A stretch of 64,000 nt of DNA from Methylorubrum populi (GTDB lineage: Bacteria; Pseudomonadota; Alphaproteobacteria; Rhizobiales; Beijerinckiaceae): the NCBI GenBank assembly GCA_020741775.1, contig DYYG01000025.1, positions 1 to 64,000 on the forward strand, written 5' to 3'. Below the pieces are notes generated by a model, which saw only the letters and a list, made by a program, of their open reading frames with translations, was not told where the DNA came from and ran no database searches. Positions 33,466 through 43,996 of the stretch are shown here, one piece after another. A program made the position numbers and the translations under genes. Position 1 is the stretch's first letter, and each line of letters opens with the position of its first letter.

Positions 33466-34293
33466 ATGTCGGATCAGAAGCCGGGCGGGCTGCTCGCGGG
33501 CAAGCGCGGGCTGGTGCTGGGAGTGGCCAATAACCGCTCGATCGCCTGGGGCATCGCCCGAAGTGCCGCCGCCCACGGGGCGGAACTTGCCTTTACCTAT
33601 CAGGGCGAGGCCCTGAAGAAGCGCGTCGAGCCGCTGGCCAAGGAACTCGGCGCCAGGGTCGTCGGCCATTGCGACGTGACAGATCCGGCCTCGATCGATG
33701 CCGTCTTCGCCGCCACCGCCGAGGCCTTTCCCGAGGGCATCGACTTCGTCGTCCACTGCGTCGCCTTTTCCGACAAGGACGAGCTGACGGGCCGCTACCT
33801 CGAGACCTCGGAGGCGAACTTCACGAAGTCGCTGCTGATCTCGTGCTACTCCTTCACCGCGATCGCGCAGCGGGCGGAAAAGATCATGCGCGAGGGCGGC
33901 TCGCTGCTGACCCTGACTTATTACGGCGCCGAGAAGTGGATGCCCCACTACAATGTGATGGGCGTCGCCAAGGCCGCGCTGGAGGCCTCCGTCCGCTACC
34001 TCGCCGCCGATCTCGGGCCGAAGCAGATCCGCGTCAACGCGATCTCGGCCGGGCCGATCAAGACGCTGGCCGCCTCCGGCATCGGCGACTTCCGCTACAT
34101 CCTCAAATGGAACGAGTACAACGCGCCGATGCGCCGGACCGTCACCATCGAGGAGGTCGGGGAGACGGCGGCCTACCTGTTCTCCGACATGTCCCGCGGC
34201 ATGACCGGCGAGATCCTGCACGTGGACGCCGGCTACCACGTCGTCGGCATGAAGAACCCCGACGCGCCGGACATCACCCGCGAGCGGGATTAG
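33466..34293 (+). CDS. fabI: Enoyl-[acyl-carrier-protein] reductase (NADH)
   Basis: 275-residue FabI, which reduces trans-2-enoyl-ACP in the last step of each fatty-acid elongation cycle. The divergent SDR cofactor motif (GVANNRSIAWGIA) and the FabI-specific Tyr-x6-Lys (HYNVMGVAKAALE) are present, with the C-terminal MTGEILHVDAGYHVVGM. It overlaps the convergent MOSC gene by 20 bp at the 3' end. Confidence 0.95.
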   Translation: MSDQKPGGLLAGKRGLVLGVANNRSIAWGIARSAAAHGAELAFTYQGEALKKRVEPLAKELGARVVGHCDVTDPASIDAVFAATAEAFPEGIDFVVHCVAFSDKDELTGRYLETSEANFTKSLLISCYSFTAIAQRAEKIMREGGSLLTLTYYGAEKWMPHYNVMGVAKAALEASVRYLAADLGPKQIRVNAISAGPIKTLAASGIGDFRYILKWNEYNAPMRRTVTIEEVGETAAYLFSDMSRGMTGEILHVDAGYHVVGMKNPDAPDITRERD

Positions 34294-35135: not shown

Positions 35136-36125
35136 TCAATCCGGGACCTTGATCCCCTCCAGCCCGGCCCGCGGCTCGGGGAAGTGCGGGTCCATCGCTT
35201 CGAGCGTGTCGGCGATGGTGCGGGCGACCATCAGGTTGCGGGCCCATTTGCGGTTGGCCGGCACCACGTGCCAGGGGGCGTAGGGAGTCGAGCAGCGGCA
35301 GAGCGCATCGTCGAAGGCGGTCTGGTAGGCGTTCCAGCTCTCGCGCTCCACGAGGTCGGCGGGGTCGAACTTCCAATGCTTGGTCGGGTCGGCGAGGCGG
35401 GCCTCCAGGCGCTCCTTCTGCTCGTCCTTGGAGATGTGCAGGAAGAACTTGAGGATCACCGTGCCCGAGAGCGTCAGCAGCCGCTCGAAGTCGTTGATGA
35501 GCCCGTAACGCTCCCGCCATGTCTCTTCCGGCACGAGGCCCTTCACCCGCACCACCAGCACGTCCTCGTAATGGCTGCGGTTGAACACGCCGATCAGGCC
35601 GCGGCCCGGAGCGCGGGCGTGGTAGCGCCACAGGAAATCCTGATCGAGTTCTTCTGCGCTCGGCACCTTGAACGACCAGACCCGGCAGCCCTGCGGGTTC
35701 ACCCCCTCCAGCACGTTGCGGATGGTGCCGTCCTTGCCGCCGGTATCGATCGCCTGAAACACCACCAGCAGGCTGCGGCGGCGCTCGGCGTAGAGCTTTT
35801 CCTGCAGGGCCTTGATACGCTCCCGCTGTGCTTCGAGCGCGGCCTTGGCCTCGGCCTTGTCGAGGCCGCCGGTCGCGTCCGGATCGACCGAGGCGAGGCT
35901 GAAGCGTTGGTCCGGCGCGACGGTGACGATGCCCGGGGCCGCCGGCGGCAGAACCGGGTGGAGATGCGGCGACAGGCTCGGCGCGGTGCCCGCCCCGGCA
36001 TCGGCCGCGCGGGCCCAGCCGGCGGAGGAGGGTGGATGGTCGGCACCCGGCGCCGCCTGCGACTTTGTTTCCCGTGCTTTCTCCGCCTTAGACCCCTTGC
36101 CGTCCTTGCCGTTCTTGCGCGCCAT
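35136..36125 (-). CDS. ppk2: Polyphosphate kinase 2 (PPK2 family)
   Basis: 329 residues. After a low-complexity N-terminus (about 1-60) comes the PPK2 core with Walker A-like AIDTGGKDGT, Walker B-like NRSHYEDVLVVRV and the lid arginine region KDEQKERLEARL. PPK2 enzymes phosphorylate nucleoside mono- or diphosphates using polyphosphate. The single-domain form is seen here; class cannot be fixed by eye. It is divergent from a histidine phosphatase gene. ATG 36125 is chosen since the frame further upstream overlaps that gene. Confidence 0.9.
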   Translation of the reverse strand: MARKNGKDGKGSKAEKARETKSQAAPGADHPPSSAGWARAADAGAGTAPSLSPHLHPVLPPAAPGIVTVAPDQRFSLASVDPDATGGLDKAEAKAALEAQRERIKALQEKLYAERRRSLLVVFQAIDTGGKDGTIRNVLEGVNPQGCRVWSFKVPSAEELDQDFLWRYHARAPGRGLIGVFNRSHYEDVLVVRVKGLVPEETWRERYGLINDFERLLTLSGTVILKFFLHISKDEQKERLEARLADPTKHWKFDPADLVERESWNAYQTAFDDALCRCSTPYAPWHVVPANRKWARNLMVARTIADTLEAMDPHFPEPRAGLEGIKVPD

Positions 36126-36278
36126 GCCGAAAGTTACCCGCTCACGAGCCGATCGCGGGGCCGCCGCCGGGCCCGCAGGAAGGGAAAAGCTTGAGCTCCC
36201 AACAGATGCGCCGCCTCTGCCGTTCCCGATCCGGCGCAGTGGGATGCCGGGGCTGCGCCGCCGCAGCGGGGCGGCCGC

Positions 36279-36875
36279 GTGAGTGAGGGGCCGACGATCT
36301 GGTTCGTGCGTCACGGCCAGACCGATTGGAACGCGGAGGGCCGCCTTCAGGGCCACCGCGACACCGATCTCAACGCCTATGGCCTGGTTCAGGCCGGGGA
36401 GGCGGCCAAGCGCCTGCGCCGCGTGGCGGGAGCGGCCCTGCCCACCGCCGATTACGTGGCGAGCCCGCTGACCCGGACCCGCCGGACCATGGAGGCGATT
36501 CGCGCCGATATCGGCTTGCCGCCCACCGGCTACCGCACCGATCCGCGCCTGAGGGAGATCGGCTTCGGCAGCTGGGAGGGTCGGACCTGGGCCGAGATCC
36601 GGCGGCGCGATCCCGCTGGGGCCGCCGCCCGCGACCGCGACCGCTGGGGCTACCGGCCCCAGGGCGAGAATGCCGAGAGCTATGCCATGGTCGAGGCGCG
36701 GGTGGAGGAGGTGGTGGCGGAGTTGCGCCGCCCGACGGTGATGGTCGCCCATGGCGGCGTCGCCCGGGCGCTGCTGGTCGTCTACGGCCATCTCGACATC
36801 TACGCCGCCCCGCGCATCGGCATCCGCCAGGGCAGCATCCTCGTCATCGATCCCGGCGGCTGGCGCTGGGCCTGA
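36279..36875 (+). CDS. Histidine phosphatase family protein (phosphoglycerate-mutase-like)
   Basis: 198 residues. The RHG motif is in IWFVRHGQTDWN (H12), the second Arg is in SPLTRTRRTMEAI, the Glu is in REIGFGSWEG, and the second catalytic His is in VMVAHGGVAR. These support a phosphatase or mutase acting through phosphohistidine. It starts at GTG 36279. Substrate unknown; the small size favours a phosphatase. Confidence 0.9.
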   Translation: MSEGPTIWFVRHGQTDWNAEGRLQGHRDTDLNAYGLVQAGEAAKRLRRVAGAALPTADYVASPLTRTRRTMEAIRADIGLPPTGYRTDPRLREIGFGSWEGRTWAEIRRRDPAGAAARDRDRWGYRPQGENAESYAMVEARVEEVVAELRRPTVMVAHGGVARALLVVYGHLDIYAAPRIGIRQGSILVIDPGGWRWA

Positions 36876-36942: not shown

Positions 36943-36989
36943 TTGACATATATCCATTTAGCTCATAACTAAGACGCAAGTTGGATATA
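36943..36989 (+). promoter_or_regulatory. Promoter and palindromic operator of the nrtR-SPFH-NAD-kinase-like operon
   Basis: A sigma-70-like promoter TTGACA (36943-36948), 17-nt spacer and TAACTA (36966-36971) is embedded in two inverted repeats. They are TATATCCA (36949-36956) with TGGATATA (36982-36989), and TTAG (36958-36961) with CTAA (36969-36972). It ends 18 bp before the start codon of an NrtR-like regulator, so autoregulation is likely by inference. Confidence 0.6.
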
Positions 36990-37007
36990 AGAGGGCGAGG
37001 TGGCGTC

Positions 37008-37745
37008 ATGAGCCAAGCCGAATCGGAGGCCGCCTTCCTGGCGCGCTACGATCCCGCCGATTACGCCCGGCCGGCTTTGGCCGTGGATCTGGTGCTGTTC
37101 GGCCTGCGGGACGGGCACCCGGCCGTCCTGCTCGTGAAGCGAACCGAGCATCCCCATGCGGGGCGCCATGCCCTGCCCGGCGGCTTCGTCGGGATCGGCG
37201 AGGCGCTGGACGATGCGGCCGGGCGTGTCCTGCGCGAGAAGGCGGGGGCGCCGCCGGCCCATCTGGAGCAGCTCTACACCTTCGGCGCGGTGAACCGCGA
37301 TCCGCGCATGCGCATCGTCACGGTCGCCTATCTCGCTCTGCTGACCGAGGCGGCCTTCGCCGAGGTTCTGGCGCGGACACCGGCCCTGCAGCCGGGCCGC
37401 GTCGCGGTGCCCTGGGCCGGGGAGGCGGGCGGCCCGGTCACGGTCCTGTCGGCCGGAGGCGAAGTCCTCACGCTCGCCTTCGACCATGCCGAGATCGTCG
37501 CCCTCGCCCTGCTGCGGCTGCGGGGCAAGCTCGACTATTCGGAGGTCGGCTTCGCCCTGCTGCCCGAGCTGTTCACCCTGCGCCAGCTGCAGGACGTGCA
37601 CGAGGCGATCCTCGGCACGCCCCTCAACAAGCCTGCCTTCCGCCGCCGGATGCTCGACCGCGGCTGGCTCGAACCGACCGGCCGGCTCGAGACGGGCACC
37701 TCCTACCGCCCCGCCGAGCTGTTCCGCTTCCGGAAAGGAGACTGA
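37008..37745 (+). CDS. NrtR-like Nudix-domain transcriptional regulator
   Basis: 245 residues. An N-terminal Nudix fold (about 20-150) has a degenerate box: GGFVGIGEALDDAAG is followed by RVLREKAGA instead of REUxEExG, so hydrolysis is unlikely. A C-terminal winged helix follows (about 165-240, SEVGFALLPELFTLRQLQDVHEAIL...FRRRML). This is the layout of NrtR, which binds ADP-ribose and represses NAD metabolism genes. ATG 37008 is preferred over TTG 36981. It leads an operon with an SPFH protein and a NAD-kinase-like protein. Confidence 0.85.
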   Translation: MSQAESEAAFLARYDPADYARPALAVDLVLFGLRDGHPAVLLVKRTEHPHAGRHALPGGFVGIGEALDDAAGRVLREKAGAPPAHLEQLYTFGAVNRDPRMRIVTVAYLALLTEAAFAEVLARTPALQPGRVAVPWAGEAGGPVTVLSAGGEVLTLAFDHAEIVALALLRLRGKLDYSEVGFALLPELFTLRQLQDVHEAILGTPLNKPAFRRRMLDRGWLEPTGRLETGTSYRPAELFRFRKGD

Positions 37746-37746
37746 C

Positions 37747-38727
37747 ATGGCCACGATCCGTCGCTTCGGCGTCCTCTCCCAGCTGAGGAGCGAGGCCAGC
37801 CACTACGTGATCCGGTTTCGCAACGGCCGGGCGCGGCAGAGCGGGCGCGGCCTCGTCTTCTGGTTCCGCCCGGAGACGGCCAGCATCAGCGAGGTGCCGA
37901 TGGACGATCGCGAGATGACTTTGTTCGTCCGCGGCCGCAGCCAGGACTTCCAGACGGTGGCGGTGCAGGGCAGCGTCGGCTGGCACGTCGCCGATCCCGC
38001 CCGCCTCGCCGCCCGGGTCGATTTCTCCCTCGATCTGCGCACCGGCCGGCTCCAGGGCGAGCCGGTCGAGAAGATCGAGGCGCGCATCGCCGGCCTCGCC
38101 AACCAGACGGTGCTGCAATTCCTGGGGCAGGCGCCGGTGCGGGCCCTGCTCGATGCCGGGCCGGAGGCTCTGCGCGGGCAGTTGCAGGCGGCCCTCGGGA
38201 CCGATCCGTCGCTGGCCGAGATCGGCGTCGCGGTGGTGTCGGTGCGGCTCACCAACCTCGCGCCGTCGAGCGAATTGGAGCGCGCCCTGCAGACGCCGAC
38301 CTACGAGGCGCTGCAGCAGAAGGCGGACGAGGCGACCTTCGCCCGCCGGGCCCTGGCGGTGGAGAAGGAGCGCGCCATCGCCGAGAACGAACTCGCCACG
38401 AAGACCGAACTGGCGCGGCGGGAGGCGCTGCTGATCGCGGAGGAGGCGCAGAACGCCCGCAACCGGGCGGAGGCGCGGGCCGAGGCGGAGGGCATCGCCG
38501 CCGGGGCGGAGGCCGAGCGCATCCGCGTGGTCGAGGGCGCGCGGGCGGAGGCCGAGCGGGCGCGCATCGCGGTCTATCGCGACGTGGCGCCGGGCACCCT
38601 GCTCGGCCTCGCCGCCCAGGCCTTGGCGGGCAAGCTCGACACCATCGAGCACGTCACCGTGACGCCGGACCTGCTCGCCACCGTGCTCGGCGAGTTCCGC
38701 CGGCCGCCGACCCTCACGCCGCGCTGA
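37747..38727 (+). CDS. SPFH/band-7 domain protein
   Basis: 326 residues. An SPFH/PHB domain spans about 10-190 (VPMDDREMTLFVRGRSQDFQTVAVQG, ISEV, IGVAVVSVRLTNLAP). A long Ala/Glu/Arg-rich coiled coil follows (about 200-285) and a short C-terminal cap. Unlike stomatin or prohibitin it has no obvious N-terminal transmembrane helix; the first residues (RRFGVLSQL) could be a peripheral anchor. Strong ribosome-binding site GGAAAGGAG overlaps the end of the regulator gene. SPFH proteins build membrane-associated rings; its client is unknown. Confidence 0.87.
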   Translation: MATIRRFGVLSQLRSEASHYVIRFRNGRARQSGRGLVFWFRPETASISEVPMDDREMTLFVRGRSQDFQTVAVQGSVGWHVADPARLAARVDFSLDLRTGRLQGEPVEKIEARIAGLANQTVLQFLGQAPVRALLDAGPEALRGQLQAALGTDPSLAEIGVAVVSVRLTNLAPSSELERALQTPTYEALQQKADEATFARRALAVEKERAIAENELATKTELARREALLIAEEAQNARNRAEARAEAEGIAAGAEAERIRVVEGARAEAERARIAVYRDVAPGTLLGLAAQALAGKLDTIEHVTVTPDLLATVLGEFRRPPTLTPR

Positions 38728-38744
38728 GGCGGAAGGACAACGCC

Positions 38745-39662
38745 ATGGCCGCACTTGCGCCGCGGGCGGTCTTCGTCACCCGCGAGACCGACTACGAGCT
38801 GCTGATCGCCCGGCACGCCACCAGGGGCCAGGCCCGCTTCTTCCTGGAGAGCCGGGGCCAGGGACTGGCCGAGGTGGAGGCGCGCCATGACCGCTTCCAC
38901 GCCGTGCTGGCGCGGGCCAGGGCCACCGTGCCGGGGGAGTGGCGCCAGGCCTCGGTGCGGCGGGCGGATCTCGACCGCTTCCTGTTCGGCCCCGACGACG
39001 TGGTCGTCGCCGTCGGTCAGGACGGGCTGATCGCCAATGTCGCGAAGTATCTCGACGACCAGCCGGTGATCGGGATCAACCCGGCCCCCGATCTCTATGA
39101 CGGGGTGCTGGTGCGCAACCGCGTCGAGGGCCTGGGCCGGCTGCTGCCGGCGAGCGTCGCCGGGGCGGTGGCGATCGAGCGGCGCACCATGGTCCAGGCG
39201 GTGCTCGACGGGGGCGAGCGCCTGTTCGCCCTCAACGAGATCTTCGTGGGCCATCGCGGCCACCAATCCGCCCGCTACCGGATCGAGGCGCCGGGCGAGG
39301 GGGGCGTCGCGGCGGAGGAGCAGTCCTCCAGCGGGCTGATCGTTGCCTCCGGCACCGGAGCCACCGGCTGGGCGCGCTCGATCGCCGAGGCGACCGCGCT
39401 CGGCCTGCCGCTCGCGCCCGAGGAGCGGGCGGTCGGCTATTGGGTGCGCGAGCCGTTCCCGAGCGTCGCCACCGCCACCCGGCTGCGCGCCGGCAAGCTC
39501 ACCGATGCGGATCTCGTGGTGACCTCGCGGATGAACGAGGGCGGGGTGGTGTTCGCCGACGGGATCGAGCACGACTTCCTCGGCTTCGGCTGGGGTCGGC
39601 AGGTCCGGCTCTCGCCCGCCGCCCGCACGCTTCACCTGGTGGCCGGGCAAGGGGTCGGATGA
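38745..39662 (+). CDS. Divergent ATP-NAD kinase-like protein
   Basis: 305 residues with NAD-kinase/diacylglycerol-kinase-like blocks. The GGDGT loop appears as VVAVGQDGLIANVAKYL (GQDG at 91-94), followed by QPVIGINPAP, the LNEIFVGH segment equivalent to the NDxxI region, and SSGLIVASGTGATGW for the STPTGS loop. The altered GQDG and the extra N-terminal region separate it from housekeeping NadK. It is 17 bp behind the SPFH gene under an NrtR-like regulator, which supports a role in NAD(H) metabolism. Activity is not proven by sequence. Confidence 0.8.
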   Translation: MAALAPRAVFVTRETDYELLIARHATRGQARFFLESRGQGLAEVEARHDRFHAVLARARATVPGEWRQASVRRADLDRFLFGPDDVVVAVGQDGLIANVAKYLDDQPVIGINPAPDLYDGVLVRNRVEGLGRLLPASVAGAVAIERRTMVQAVLDGGERLFALNEIFVGHRGHQSARYRIEAPGEGGVAAEEQSSSGLIVASGTGATGWARSIAEATALGLPLAPEERAVGYWVREPFPSVATATRLRAGKLTDADLVVTSRMNEGGVVFADGIEHDFLGFGWGRQVRLSPAARTLHLVAGQGVG

Positions 39663-39910: not shown

Positions 39911-42900
39911 ATGAGCGGTCTCGCCGAGAAAAGCCGGAACCGGCAGGACGGCGGATGGGGGGAGGGCCCCGACGGCCGCGCCGTCCTGCGCGGCGCCGCG
40001 CGCCCCGACCTGATCCGCCGGGAAACCCTGGCCGCTTTGTTCCGGGCGAGTGCGGCGGAGCGCGCGGACGCGCCCTGCCTGATCGACGCCGCCGAGCCCG
40101 GCGTGGAGGGTCGCCGCCCGGTCCTGACCTATGCGCAGGTCGATGCCCGTTCCGACGCCATCGCGGCGGGGCTTGCCAGCCGCGGCATCGGCCCCGGCGA
40201 CGTGGTCGGCCTGTGGATGGCCCGCGGCACCGAGCTGCTGATCGCGCAGATCGGCATCACCAAATCCGGTGCCGCCTGGCTCCCCTTCGATGCCGAGGCC
40301 CCTGCCGACCGGGTCGCGGTCTGCCTGGGGGATGCGGCGGCCAAGGCGCTCCTGGTCTCGGAGGCCCTGCGGCCCCAGGCGCCGGAGGGCACGCCGCCCG
40401 TCACCAGCACGGAGCTTCTGGCGGCGGGGCAGGGGAGGCCCGCGCCCGATCTCGACACCGCCGGCCTGACCCCGGAGCATCCGGCCTACCTGATCTACAC
40501 TTCGGGCTCGACCGGCGTGCCGAAGGGCATCGTCATCAGCCACGCCAATATCTGCCACTTCCTGCGCTCGGGGAACGCCGTCTACGGCATGCGCGCCGAC
40601 GACGTGGTGTTCCAGGGCGCCTCGGTCGCCTTCGATCTCTCGATGGAGGAGATCTGGGTGCCCTATCTGGTGGGCGCCTGCCTGTTCGTGGCGAGCCCGG
40701 CCATGATGGGCGATGTGGAAGCCCTTCCCGCGATCATCGCGGAGGCCCGCGTCACCGTGCTCGACACGGTGCCGACCCTGCTCGCCATGATCCCCGGCGA
40801 CCTGCCCACCGTCCGCCTCGTCCTGCTCGGCGGCGAAGCCCTGCCCGAGCCGCTGGTGGCGCGCTGGGCCACGGACCGGCGGCGCCTGTTCAACACCTAC
40901 GGGCCGACCGAGGCCACCGTGGTGGCGACCGCCGCCGAGATGAAGCCGGGCCAGCCCGTCACCATCGGCGGCCCGATTCCGAATTACTCGGTCTATGTCG
41001 CCGACGAGGCGCTGACGCTGTTGAAGCCCGGCGAGCAGGGCGAATTGCTGATCGGCGGCCCCGGCGTCGCCAAGGGTTATCTCAAGCGGCCGGAGCTGAC
41101 GGCGGAAAAGTTCGTCGCCAACCCCTACCCGTCCGACGGGACCGATCCGGTCCTCTACCGTTCGGGCGATGCCGTCTCGATGACGGCCGACGGCGACATC
41201 GTCTTCCACGGCCGCATCGACGATCAGGTCAAGATTCGCGGCTTCCGGGTCGAACTCGGCGAGATCGAGTCCCGCATCCGGGGGGAGGCCGGCGTCAATC
41301 AAGCGGCAGTGGTGCTGCGCCGGGACGACGAGGTCGACCGGCTGGTGGCCTTCCTCGTCCCCGAGCGCGGGGCCGATCTCGACCGCGCGGCGCTCCGGAA
41401 GAACCTCGCGGCGCAGATGCCGCCCTACATGGTGCCCAGCCATTTCGAGACCGTGGAGACCCTGCCGCGGCTCACCTCCGGCAAGGTCGACCGCAAGGCG
41501 CTGCGGATCGCTCCGCTGACCGTCGCGGTGGCCGAGGGCGAGCAGGAAGCGCCCGACAACGAAACCGAGGCCGCGCTGCTGGCCGCCGCCAAGAAGGTGT
41601 TCGGCGACCAGCCGATCGGGTTCGAGGCGGATTTCTTCTCCGAACTCGGCGGCCATTCCCTGCTCGCCGCCCGCTTCGTCGGCGCGGTGCGTGAGATCCC
41701 GGCGCTCGCCGGCATCACCCTGCAGGACGTCTATGCCGGCCGGACGCTGCGGGCGATGGCGTCACACCTGATCGAGCGGACCGGCGGCGTCGGCGCCCAG
41801 ACGGCCGTGCGGGATCTGAGCTTCGCCCCGCCTCCGCTGTTGCGGCGGGCGCTGTGCGGCCTCGCCCAGGCCGTGGCTTTGCCCTTCGTGATCGCGCTGG
41901 CCACGGCGCAGTGGCTCGGCATCTTCGTCACCTACCTGCTGCTCACCGGCGGAGGGCTCGGCTTCTGGGGCGAACTCGGCGTCCTGCTGCTCGTCTATAT
42001 CGGCATCAACGCGGTGACGGCGGCGGTCGCCATCGCCGCCAAGTGGCTGATCCTCGGGCGGACCAAGCCGGGGCGCTACCCGCTCTGGGGTGTCTATTAT
42101 TACCGCTGGTGGCTGGCGCAGCGTTTGACGCCGCTGGTGCATATCAAGTGGCTCCAGGGCTCGCCGGCCATCGTCGCCTATCTGCGCCTGCTCGGCGCGA
42201 AGATCGGCGAGGACGTGCTGATCTCCGATCTCGATGTCGGCGCGGCCGACCTCCTGAGCATCGGCCGGGGCTCCTCCCTCGGGGGACGGCTGGTGATCGC
42301 CAATGCCGAGGTCGTCGGCGACGAGCTGGTCATCGGCCCCGTCGAGATCGGCGAGGACGTCGCCATCGGCGCCTCCTGCGTCATCGGTCCCCGCACCGTG
42401 ATCGGCGACCATGCCGAGATCGCCGACCTCACCACCGTGCCGGCCGGCACCGAGATCGGCACGGCCGAGGCCTGGGACGGATCGCCGGGCCGCCGGGTCG
42501 GCACCGTCGACTTCGCCGATCTTCCCGAGCCCGCCACCGCCTCGCCGGCGCGCCGGGCGGCCTTCGGCGCAGTCTACGCCTTCCTCTTGGCGGCGGTGCC
42601 GGCGGTCGGCCTGCTTCCGATCTTCCCGGCCTTCTACATCTTCGACCAGATCTCGGATAACCTCTCGGAGATCACCGACGTCGATTACCACACCTACCTG
42701 CCGCTGCTGACCTGGCCGACCGCCATGCTGATGACGGCGGGCACGGTGCTGCTCATCGCCGCCATCCGCTGGGCGGTGCTGCCGCGGGCGACCCACGGCA
42801 CCTACTCGATCTGGTCGGGCTTCTACCTGCGCAAATGGCTCGTGGCGCTCGCCTCCGAGGTGACTCTGGAGACGCTCTCCTCGCTGTTCGCCACCGTCTA

Positions 42901-43996
42901 CATGCGGGCCTGGTACCGGCTGATGGGCGCGCGGATGGGCCGGGGCGCCGAGATCTCGACCAATCTCGGCTCCCGTCACGACCTCGTTTCGGTCGGCGCG
43001 AACAACTTCATCGCCGACGAGGTGGTGGTGGGCGAGGAGGAGATCCGCCGCGGCTGGATGCATCTCCATCCGGTCGAGACCGGCGCCCGCGTCTTCGTCG
43101 GCAATGACGGCGTGCTGCCGCCGGGCGCGCGGATCCCCGACGACGTGCTGATCGGCATCAAGTCGAAGCCGCCGGCCAACGAGGCCATGGGGCCGGGCGA
43201 GACGTGGTTCGGCTCGCCGCCGATCCGCCTGCCGGTGCGTCAGAAGGTCGATCTCGGCTCGGCCGCCCAGACCTTCGAGCCGAGCAAGGCAGCCAAGCTG
43301 CGGCGCGGCCTGTTCGAGGCCTTCGCCACCTCGTTCTCGCCGATGCTCTACATCTCGCTCGCCATCTGCACGATCGACTTCGTGTTCTACCCGGCCATCC
43401 TCGCCGAGGATTGGGCCGGGCTGGCCTTCGCCTTCGTGGCCGCCAGCGTCATCATCGCGCTGATCCAGACCACGAGCGTCATCGCCCTCAAATGGCTGCT
43501 GATGGGCGCCTACCGTCCCGGCATGCAGCCGATGTGGTCGTGGTGGGCAATGCGGACCGAGGCCATCGCGGTGGCCTATTGGGGCTTGGCCGGCAAGGTG
43601 CTGCTGGAGCACCTGATGGGCACGCCCTTCCTGCCCTGGGTGCTGCGCCTGTTCGGCGTGAAGGTCGGCAAGGGCACCTGCCTCCTGATGACCGACATCA
43701 CCGAATTCGATTGCGTCACCATCGGCGACTACGCCGCCGTGAACCGCTCGGCGGCGCTGCAGACCCATCTCTACGAGGACCGGATCATGAAGGTCGGCCG
43801 GGTCGAGATCGGGCGCGGCGTTTCGGTGGGGGCCTTCTCCACCGTCCTCTACGACACCAAGGTCGGCGATTTCGCCCGGCTCCGCCCGCTCACCATCGTC
43901 ATGAAGGGTGAGTCGATCCCCGCCCATTCGGAATGGGAGGGCGCGCCCGCCGTGCCGGTGGTGCACGCGGCCGCCGAGCCGGCGAAGGCGGCCTGA
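39911..43996 (+). CDS. Pls-like non-ribosomal peptide synthetase: A domain, PCP, membrane-embedded C-terminal region
   Basis: 1361 residues. An adenylation domain (about 25-540) has YTSGSTGVPKG (from Y196), FDLSMEEIW, NTYGPTEAT, YRSGD, GRIDDQVKIRGFRVE and GKVDRK. A carrier domain has LGGHSLLAARF with S583. The rest (about 630-1345) has roughly six transmembrane helices alternating with three soluble segments containing left-handed beta-helix repeats (LVIGPVEIGEDVAIGASCVIG; VSVGANNFIADEVVVGEE; VEIGRGVSVGAFSTV). There is no classical C or TE domain. This is the TIGR02353/epsilon-poly-lysine synthetase layout (about 1320 residues). The product is probably a poly-amino-acid isopeptide; substrate unproven. 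Confidence 0.88.
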   Translation: MSGLAEKSRNRQDGGWGEGPDGRAVLRGAARPDLIRRETLAALFRASAAERADAPCLIDAAEPGVEGRRPVLTYAQVDARSDAIAAGLASRGIGPGDVVGLWMARGTELLIAQIGITKSGAAWLPFDAEAPADRVAVCLGDAAAKALLVSEALRPQAPEGTPPVTSTELLAAGQGRPAPDLDTAGLTPEHPAYLIYTSGSTGVPKGIVISHANICHFLRSGNAVYGMRADDVVFQGASVAFDLSMEEIWVPYLVGACLFVASPAMMGDVEALPAIIAEARVTVLDTVPTLLAMIPGDLPTVRLVLLGGEALPEPLVARWATDRRRLFNTYGPTEATVVATAAEMKPGQPVTIGGPIPNYSVYVADEALTLLKPGEQGELLIGGPGVAKGYLKRPELTAEKFVANPYPSDGTDPVLYRSGDAVSMTADGDIVFHGRIDDQVKIRGFRVELGEIESRIRGEAGVNQAAVVLRRDDEVDRLVAFLVPERGADLDRAALRKNLAAQMPPYMVPSHFETVETLPRLTSGKVDRKALRIAPLTVAVAEGEQEAPDNETEAALLAAAKKVFGDQPIGFEADFFSELGGHSLLAARFVGAVREIPALAGITLQDVYAGRTLRAMASHLIERTGGVGAQTAVRDLSFAPPPLLRRALCGLAQAVALPFVIALATAQWLGIFVTYLLLTGGGLGFWGELGVLLLVYIGINAVTAAVAIAAKWLILGRTKPGRYPLWGVYYYRWWLAQRLTPLVHIKWLQGSPAIVAYLRLLGAKIGEDVLISDLDVGAADLLSIGRGSSLGGRLVIANAEVVGDELVIGPVEIGEDVAIGASCVIGPRTVIGDHAEIADLTTVPAGTEIGTAEAWDGSPGRRVGTVDFADLPEPATASPARRAAFGAVYAFLLAAVPAVGLLPIFPAFYIFDQISDNLSEITDVDYHTYLPLLTWPTAMLMTAGTVLLIAAIRWAVLPRATHGTYSIWSGFYLRKWLVALASEVTLETLSSLFATVYMRAWYRLMGARMGRGAEISTNLGSRHDLVSVGANNFIADEVVVGEEEIRRGWMHLHPVETGARVFVGNDGVLPPGARIPDDVLIGIKSKPPANEAMGPGETWFGSPPIRLPVRQKVDLGSAAQTFEPSKAAKLRRGLFEAFATSFSPMLYISLAICTIDFVFYPAILAEDWAGLAFAFVAASVIIALIQTTSVIALKWLLMGAYRPGMQPMWSWWAMRTEAIAVAYWGLAGKVLLEHLMGTPFLPWVLRLFGVKVGKGTCLLMTDITEFDCVTIGDYAAVNRSAALQTHLYEDRIMKVGRVEIGRGVSVGAFSTVLYDTKVGDFARLRPLTIVMKGESIPAHSEWEGAPAVPVVHAAAEPAKAA

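Follow-up and report, generated by a model that had tools for sequence, protein, structure and literature searches.

A Pls/PosA-family synthetase in Methylorubrum populi

The stretch of Methylorubrum populi DNA analyzed here (64,000 nucleotides, i.e., positions 1 to 64,000 of contig DYYG01000025.1 in assembly GCA_020741775.1; hereafter the window) carries a gene for a large synthetase of the Pls/PosA family, at 39911..43996 on the plus strand. In our judgment the chances are evenly balanced that this gene encodes a membrane-bound synthetase of an isopeptide-linked cationic homo-poly(amino acid), closely related to PosA (the enzyme that makes delta-poly-L-ornithine in Acinetobacter baumannii), that draws a basic monomer from primary metabolism, most likely L-ornithine. 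As judged by sequence comparison, the closeness to PosA is firm and a basic amino acid as the substrate is well supported.

The gene is one open frame of 1361 codons with an ATG start. Its product matches the Pfam models AMP-binding (residues 44-391), AMP-binding_C (451-525) and PP-binding (555-620), followed at residues 652-1347 by TIGR02353, the NCBIfam model of the Pls/PosA terminal domain (573.4 bits, against a curated cut-off of 423.1). The protein accordingly comprises an adenylation domain (A domain; PF00501 and PF13193) at residues 44-525 (40040..41485, plus strand, as are all features below unless stated), a peptidyl carrier domain (PF00550) at 555-620 (41573..41770) and a membrane polymerization domain (TIGR02353, 573 bits) at 652-1347 (41864..43951). 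No condensation or thioesterase domain was found among the Pfam matches of the protein. By the simple Nei-Gojobori method, the ratio of nonsynonymous to synonymous substitution rates (dN/dS) was 0.13, 0.17 and 0.15 against the three closest relatives fetched and 0.32 against a more distant one; the gene is under purifying selection. Given the single open frame, the match to a curated model and the dN/dS of 0.13-0.17, the reading frame is real, intact and far beyond chance, and the large antisense frames that run across it were rejected as frames forced by the high G+C content.

Residues are numbered as in the window protein, with the standard code positions (235, 236, 239, 278 and so on) in brackets; the code residues Asp235, Glu239, Asp278 and Lys517 are named by code position. 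Conservation was counted over 98 aligned members of the family, the window protein and its paralogue in the same genome among them. Left uncounted were the 60 short loci L007-L066, whose genomes overlap in part with those counted; L214, from a genome already in the count; L215 and L218, whose code is DLEDLGTVVK; and three further rows, of which L211 was misaligned, L224 lacked the pocket and L229 had it masked. Rows L067 and L230 of the 98 are separated by zero branch lengths in the full-length tree and are apparently one protein. The phosphopantetheine site S583 (41657-41659) is a serine in all 98. The protein thus has the features that we looked for in a member of this family, also called the CHPA synthetases: a C-terminal domain over the cut-off, a single A domain and a single carrier domain with its serine, and Asp235 together with Glu239. 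An earlier note, made from the sequence alone, had proposed an adenylation-carrier-transmembrane layout lacking condensation and thioesterase domains, with S583 as the carrier serine; the Pfam and TIGR02353 matches, the six hydrophobic segments described below and the invariant serine bear this out.

PosA is the nearest characterized relative

Among A domains of solved structure, the best single match was PosA (structures 8G95-8G98; 369 bits with 8G95), whereas Pls, the epsilon-poly-L-lysine synthetase of Streptomyces albulus (7WEW), scored 219 bits and, over this long stretch, fell behind several ordinary A domains of non-ribosomal peptide synthetases. The total for linear gramicidin synthetase exceeded that of PosA only by summing two domains (about 206 + 203 bits). 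A search with the pocket stretch alone again put PosA first (122 bits), now with Pls second (87) and the next match at 63. Over the whole protein, four A. baumannii records matched at 40.8% identity over 97% of the length; the one that we fetched carries the PosA code, and its annotation does not use the name PosA. Hence PosA, and not Pls as the earlier note had it, is the nearest characterized enzyme.

Two phylogenetic trees placed PosA similarly. FastTree, run on 88 chosen full-length rows with the root at the midpoint, put the 60 rows whose code begins with DLE (the DLE group) into one group with a support of 100, with PosA as their sister and other rows with DME codes next. A tree of the C-terminal domain (44 chosen rows) again united the DLE rows at 100 and joined them to PosA at 99. 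Four rows with DAE codes, i.e., with the first letters of the Pls code, stood apart from the DLE rows in the trees.

Both characterized enzymes share the architecture of the window protein, i.e., an A domain, a carrier domain and a C-terminal membrane domain. PosA has Asp235, Glu239, Gly301, Thr322, Val330 and Lys517 in common with it, yet the two are only about 41% identical overall, and four code positions differ: 236 (Leu in the window protein, Met in PosA), 278 (Asp, His), 299 (Leu, Asn) and 331 (Val, Ser). The alignment with Pls that the earlier note had called for showed seven of ten code letters to be shared (the Pls code was read as DAESIGTVV; its last letter, outside the aligned stretch, was taken as K), but also differences at 236 (Leu in the window protein, Ala in Pls), 278 (Asp, Ser) and 299 (Leu, Ile), and an A domain more distant than that of PosA.

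Among the relatives, four alphaproteobacterial loci (L192, L209, L210 and L236, one of them a Sphingomonas plasmid gene) carry the PosA-type code DMEHNGTV(S/T)K, and are possible delta-poly-ornithine makers in this class as judged by their pocket letters. A Novosphingobium locus (L069) has the code DSECYGGVTK, which Patel and Gulick report for an arginine-activating enzyme from Bdellovibrionales. It came from a search for named relatives with general A-domain motifs, in which 5 of 80 loci (L067-L071) reached the C-terminal domain; the other 75, ending by residue 676, were not used.

Glu239 marks the family and Asp278 a group within it

The specificity pocket reads DLEDLGTVVK, at residues 242, 243, 246, 285, 305, 307, 329, 337, 338 and 525. 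The first nine letters were placed via the sequences of the PosA (8G95, 8G97) and Pls (7WEW) crystal structures and all ten via the alignment of relatives, and they agree letter by letter with the pocket that the earlier note had derived by hand from GrsA. D242 (235), L243 (236) and E246 (239) lie at 40634..40648, D285 (278) at 40763..40765, the stretch with L305, G307, T329, V337 and V338 (299, 301, 322, 330 and 331) at 40823..40924, and the A10 lysine K525 (517) at 41483..41485.

Asp235, Glu239 and Lys517 are invariant (98/98). Asp278 behaves differently: every row that has Leu at 236 carries it (70/70), and no other row does (0/28). In PosA, Patel and Gulick found that Asp217 (235) and Glu221 (239) hold the two amines of the substrate, with Glu221 binding the side-chain amine, and that the D217A and E221A variants had no detectable activity. 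The earlier note had taken the acidic residues at both 239 and 278 as pointing to a basic substrate. A basic (diamino) substrate is indeed likely, but because Glu239 occurs throughout the family, including in two members with an adjacent diaminobutyrate aminotransferase gene, it marks the family as a whole and not which amino acid is chosen, whereas Asp278, by this same alignment, marks a group within the family. A near-identical Methylobacterium code was singled out as a unique signature by Patel and Gulick.

A predicted three-fold membrane domain

A hydrophobicity scan flagged six segments in the C-terminal part, arranged as three pairs: residues 643-681/683-717, 882-915/932-961 and 1137-1168/1169-1201. 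It also picked up two weaker segments within the A domain, taken as buried core. We modeled residues 631-1361 with AlphaFold2, from an alignment of six sequences (the window protein and five relatives). In the model (predicted local distance difference test 82.6, predicted template modeling score 0.85), a run of short strands comes after each of three helix pairs. Predicted transmembrane helix pairs thus span residues 643-717 (41837..42061), 882-961 (42554..42793) and 1137-1201 (43319..43513), alternating with modeled beta-helix segments at about residues 763-865 (42197..42505), 1006-1107 (42926..43231) and 1250-1347 (43658..43951). This layout, with three pairs of transmembrane helices and as many soluble segments, is that of the family and was likewise predicted for the C-terminal domain of PosA by Patel and Gulick, and the three soluble beta-helix segments of the earlier note are borne out as far as prediction goes. 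In a Foldseek search of the PDB, the matches listed were acyltransferases of the hexapeptide type, gamma-carbonic anhydrases and, related to these, subunits of complex I and dynactin; all cover only part of the C-terminal model, with a template modeling score (TM-score) by query length of 0.08-0.16 among the 50 matches listed.

Gly and Pro make up most of the C-terminal residues kept in at least 95% of the 98 rows. Polar residues kept to this degree include Q653, K711, R732, D780, D1036, N1065, E1217, E1265 and D1273, to which the third beta-helix adds Q1284, H1286, E1289, K1294, K1332 and E1334. Three of the latter form the motif Q1284-x-H1286-x-x-E1289 (43760..43777; Q in 98/98, H and E each in 97/98, the odd one being a gap), which may be the catalytic site of polymerization. 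H1286 is the only histidine among the kept polar residues of the C-terminal part, and in related beta-helix acyltransferases it is a histidine that serves as the base; for these reasons, and by this analogy, we propose that H1286 could act as the general base for amide formation.

These features are consistent with the following pathway. The A domain, whose domain matches and motifs are present, would activate a basic amino acid of primary metabolism as its AMP ester. The acyl group would then move to a phosphopantetheine arm on S583, presumably attached by a phosphopantetheinyl transferase encoded in this genome. By analogy with PosA and Pls, the three-fold membrane domain, with its beta-helices set on six membrane helices, would join the carboxylate to the side-chain amine of the next unit, with QxHxxE of the third beta-helix supplying the general base. 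Such a pathway would yield, at the membrane, a short polycation with isopeptide links.

With regard to carrier activation, two matches to PF01648, the phosphopantetheinyl transferase model, were found in the genome. Such a gene adjoins the synthetase in one Rhizobium, one Sphingomonas and two same-family genomes (L181 and L194, 10 neighbors scanned), and none stands beside it in two Azospirillum loci and the Acinetobacter locus, within the stretches annotated.

Which amino acid is polymerized

Of the three monomers that the earlier note had put forward (lysine, ornithine and diaminobutyrate), ornithine now appears the most likely, followed by lysine, with diaminobutyrate the least likely. Taken on its own, L-ornithine as the monomer falls a shade short of an even chance. 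It is favored because PosA is the best match among solved A domains and the sister of the DLE group in the full-length and C-terminal-domain trees, and because Leu at 236 is close to the Met of PosA in size. The latter point draws on a proposal of Patel and Gulick, in which the second code residue gauges the chain length of the substrate, Phe going with diaminopropionate or diaminobutyrate, Met with ornithine and Ala with lysine.

No diaminobutyrate aminotransferase or other diamino-acid precursor gene was found among the window neighbors examined, for which the control was mixed (two of three annotated loci with DFE-type codes have one), and the best genome match to TIGR00709 (diaminobutyrate aminotransferase) reached 139 bits against a cut-off of 402, a search that did not extend to EctB-specific, diaminopropionate or beta-lysine genes. 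Since the neighbors examined are housekeeping genes, with no precursor gene seen among them, and TIGR00709 had no match over the cut-off, a common amino acid from primary metabolism is the more likely monomer.

Several observations weigh against this assignment. By its code letters the pocket is nearer to that of Pls (DAESIGTVVK, 7/10) than to that of PosA (DMEHNGTVSK, 6/10), and Ser313 of PosA, which is important for ornithine (Patel and Gulick found it to be worth 183-fold in catalysis), is Val here as it is in Pls. The tree tool flagged PosA as a long branch of unlike composition. Moreover, an A-domain tree of the same 44 rows, built without the pocket columns, split the DLE rows and placed PosA inside them: the innermost joins around PosA had supports of 27 and 28, its join with three DLE rows 84 and the larger group 99, while the DME row L210 fell beside the PosA-containing set and the three other DME rows fell elsewhere. 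The branching of the A domains, and hence the ancestry of the pocket, is thus not firm, and neither the A-domain tree nor the code letters decide between the monomers. On the supply side, the argument from aminotransferases is not watertight, as the Streptomyces and Skermanella loci with DFE-type codes have an adjacent diaminobutyrate aminotransferase gene but the Rhodococcus one has none in the stretch shown, and just one enzyme model was searched for diaminobutyrate supply. The only substrate-like neighbor, an antiporter-like gene beside the second synthetase copy of this genome, occurs in one of five second-copy loci, the other four being without it at the limit used. Lastly, our literature searches, which covered part of the matching papers, gave no product for an enzyme with a DLED code, so that polymerization here is drawn from the relatives.

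The strongest competitor is the same machine with L-lysine as its monomer, i.e., an epsilon-poly-L-lysine synthetase, which we regard as possible but doubtful. The code letters shared with Pls include Thr322, Val330 and Val331, and papers based on antiSMASH label such clusters as 'like epsilon-polylysine' (PMC10353431 and, in the excerpts available, PMC8561711). On the other hand, the proposed chain-length gauge is Leu and not Ala, and in PosA it was a smaller residue at this position (M218A) that raised the efficiency with lysine nearly 10-fold (Patel and Gulick). Both the A domain and the C-terminal domain are nearer to PosA, and the DAE-code rows lie apart.

It is unlikely, in our view, that the monomer is arginine or another basic amino acid. 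Equally unlikely is the related idea that the DLE group activates a unit not yet seen in the family (L-arginine, for instance, or a diamino acid with a modification) to give an undescribed polymer, with Asp278 pairing with a second positive group. The strict confinement of Asp278 to the DLE rows speaks for this idea, as does the work of Patel and Gulick, who called the near-identical code unique and found an arginine-activating relative with another code. However, Asp278 may merely replace the amine-binding role of PosA Ser313, and a guanidinium group is, by general chemistry, a poor nucleophile for chain growth.

We consider it very improbable that the aminoacyl group is instead passed to another acceptor (a lipid, glycan or polyamine), giving a conjugate without polymerization. 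Such a role would fit the resemblance of the beta-helix part to acyltransferases with small acceptors (partial matches, TM-score 0.08-0.16 among the 50 listed) and the lack of a known product, yet PosA and Pls, of the same C-terminal domain family, polymerize, and QxHxxE is common to the aligned members, the Acinetobacter PosA row included. Least probable of all is a poly-diaminobutyrate or poly-diaminopropionate synthetase: these are known products of the family, and the missing precursor gene is not decisive (as the Rhodococcus locus illustrates), but such enzymes have Phe at 236 where the window protein has Leu, two of the three annotated DFE-type loci have an adjacent aminotransferase gene where the window neighbors examined have none, and TIGR00709, the one enzyme model searched, had no match over its cut-off in the genome.

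A near-universal and probable core gene of the genus

We found a match over the cut-off in 98 of 99 genomes of the same genus, the sole miss being a genome that is 70% complete. Further out, it was found in 205 of 298 genomes of a family sample (25 of the 298 being of the same genus, the window's genome included), in 23 of 150 of an order sample (5 of the 23 from the same genus or family) and in 8 of 240 of a class sample (3 of the 8 being the same genome or family). The code DLEDLGTVVK was present in all of the 30 best-scoring genus loci, as well as in all 16 primary copies refetched with their flanks. Other matches point to Methylobacterium as the very likely genus: in the plasmid collection, the top DNA match of the window's first 25 kb is to Methylobacterium bullatum (80% over 2.7 kb), and three genes of the genome score over the cut-off of the PQQ alcohol dehydrogenase model. 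Because of its presence in 98/99 genus genomes and the purifying selection on it, the synthetase is best read, from these sequences, as a core gene of the genus that has been kept vertically.

A Bosea genome announcement prints the code DLedLgTVvK for a NAPAA cluster (an antiSMASH label) in all eight complete Bosea genomes (PMC10508160), a comparison of Methylobacterium genomes reports, in the excerpts available, NAPAA clusters in almost all of them (PMC8561711), and two M. extorquens genomes have one such cluster each (PMC10353431). As far as the parts of these sources at hand go, the NAPAA clusters of Bosea, Methylobacterium and Methylorubrum hold the same kind of gene as the window, no difference from it was found, and no product is named for them. 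In literature searches that covered part of the matching papers, no product or mutant phenotype was found for an enzyme of the DLED type, the Methylobacterium gene included. Thus, the genes and even the exact code are already in print; the view of the earlier note that such polymers are scarcely known in alphaproteobacteria fails for the genes and can hold for the product only.

Gene neighborhood and second copy

Across the family the synthetase is often found in a housekeeping block, and the neighbors examined are housekeeping genes. A histidine-phosphatase-family gene (36279..36875), separated from the synthetase in the window, is near it in 13/16 primary-copy genus loci and 21/40 family loci, and a homologue of the gene at 33466..34293, which we take from its sequence to be a FabI-like enoyl-ACP reductase, in 9/16 and in 24/40 of those examined. 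Automatic clustering, with one representative identified per cluster, also placed chorismate synthase in 24/40 family loci and a RibBA-like gene in 16/40. Between the phosphatase and synthetase genes of the window lie PPK2, NUDIX/NrtR, SPFH and weakly NAD-kinase-like genes, and after the synthetase come an alpha/beta hydrolase, a class-V aminotransferase and what are presumably suf genes, so named from their sequence. The hydrolase was considered as a polymer-degrading enzyme and dropped, since it is near the synthetase in only 8/16 primary-copy genus loci. PosA, for its part, has been described as a single-gene operon.

Two further observations concern the upstream genes. Proteins of the NUDIX/NrtR-type regulator, SPFH/Band 7 and weakly NAD-kinase-like kinds are encoded in a row just upstream (36981-39662), and this trio recurs in three of 16 other primary-copy genus loci, those of the three closest relatives. 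Automatic clustering grouped a minus-strand frame at 35136-36791 under a PPK2-type polyphosphate kinase as cluster representative, with members of this cluster in 16 of 61 other loci.

The genome holds two synthetase copies, the second on another contig (contig 8; L005, 9671-13684). This copy is full-length, about 58% identical to the window protein and has the code DLEDIGSVVK. Full-length second copies occur in 5 of 99 genus genomes and partial ones in two more, and an OprB-type porin gene is near the synthetase in all five such loci. Overlapping the 3' end of the second copy is an arginine/ornithine-antiporter-like frame (L005, 8169-9719), which scored 509 bits against the cut-off of 591 for the arginine-ornithine equivalog (under) and 449 against 409 for a basic amino acid/polyamine antiporter (over). 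As a clue to the substrate we gave it little weight, given its occurrence in one of the five loci.

What a DLED polycation would mean

The biological role of bacterial polycationic homopolymers was called an open question in one article, as far as its available excerpts go (PMC9606270). Because the gene is kept in a housekeeping neighborhood across much of the family, a standing role in the cell envelope appears more likely than an occasional antibiotic one. A bolder and rather doubtful extension is that the DLED enzymes form a homopolymer synthetase class of their own, marked by Asp278 as a second pocket acid, whose undescribed polycation would be a standing part of the envelope, inherited with the core genome and not traded as an antibiotic cluster. 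If true, the DLED polycation would be a constant envelope component in Methylobacterium and much of its family. The group-specific Asp278 offers a single residue for testing how these A domains choose their amino acid, and because a tractable genus has kept a vertically inherited copy almost throughout, the role of such polycations can be tested there by gene deletion.

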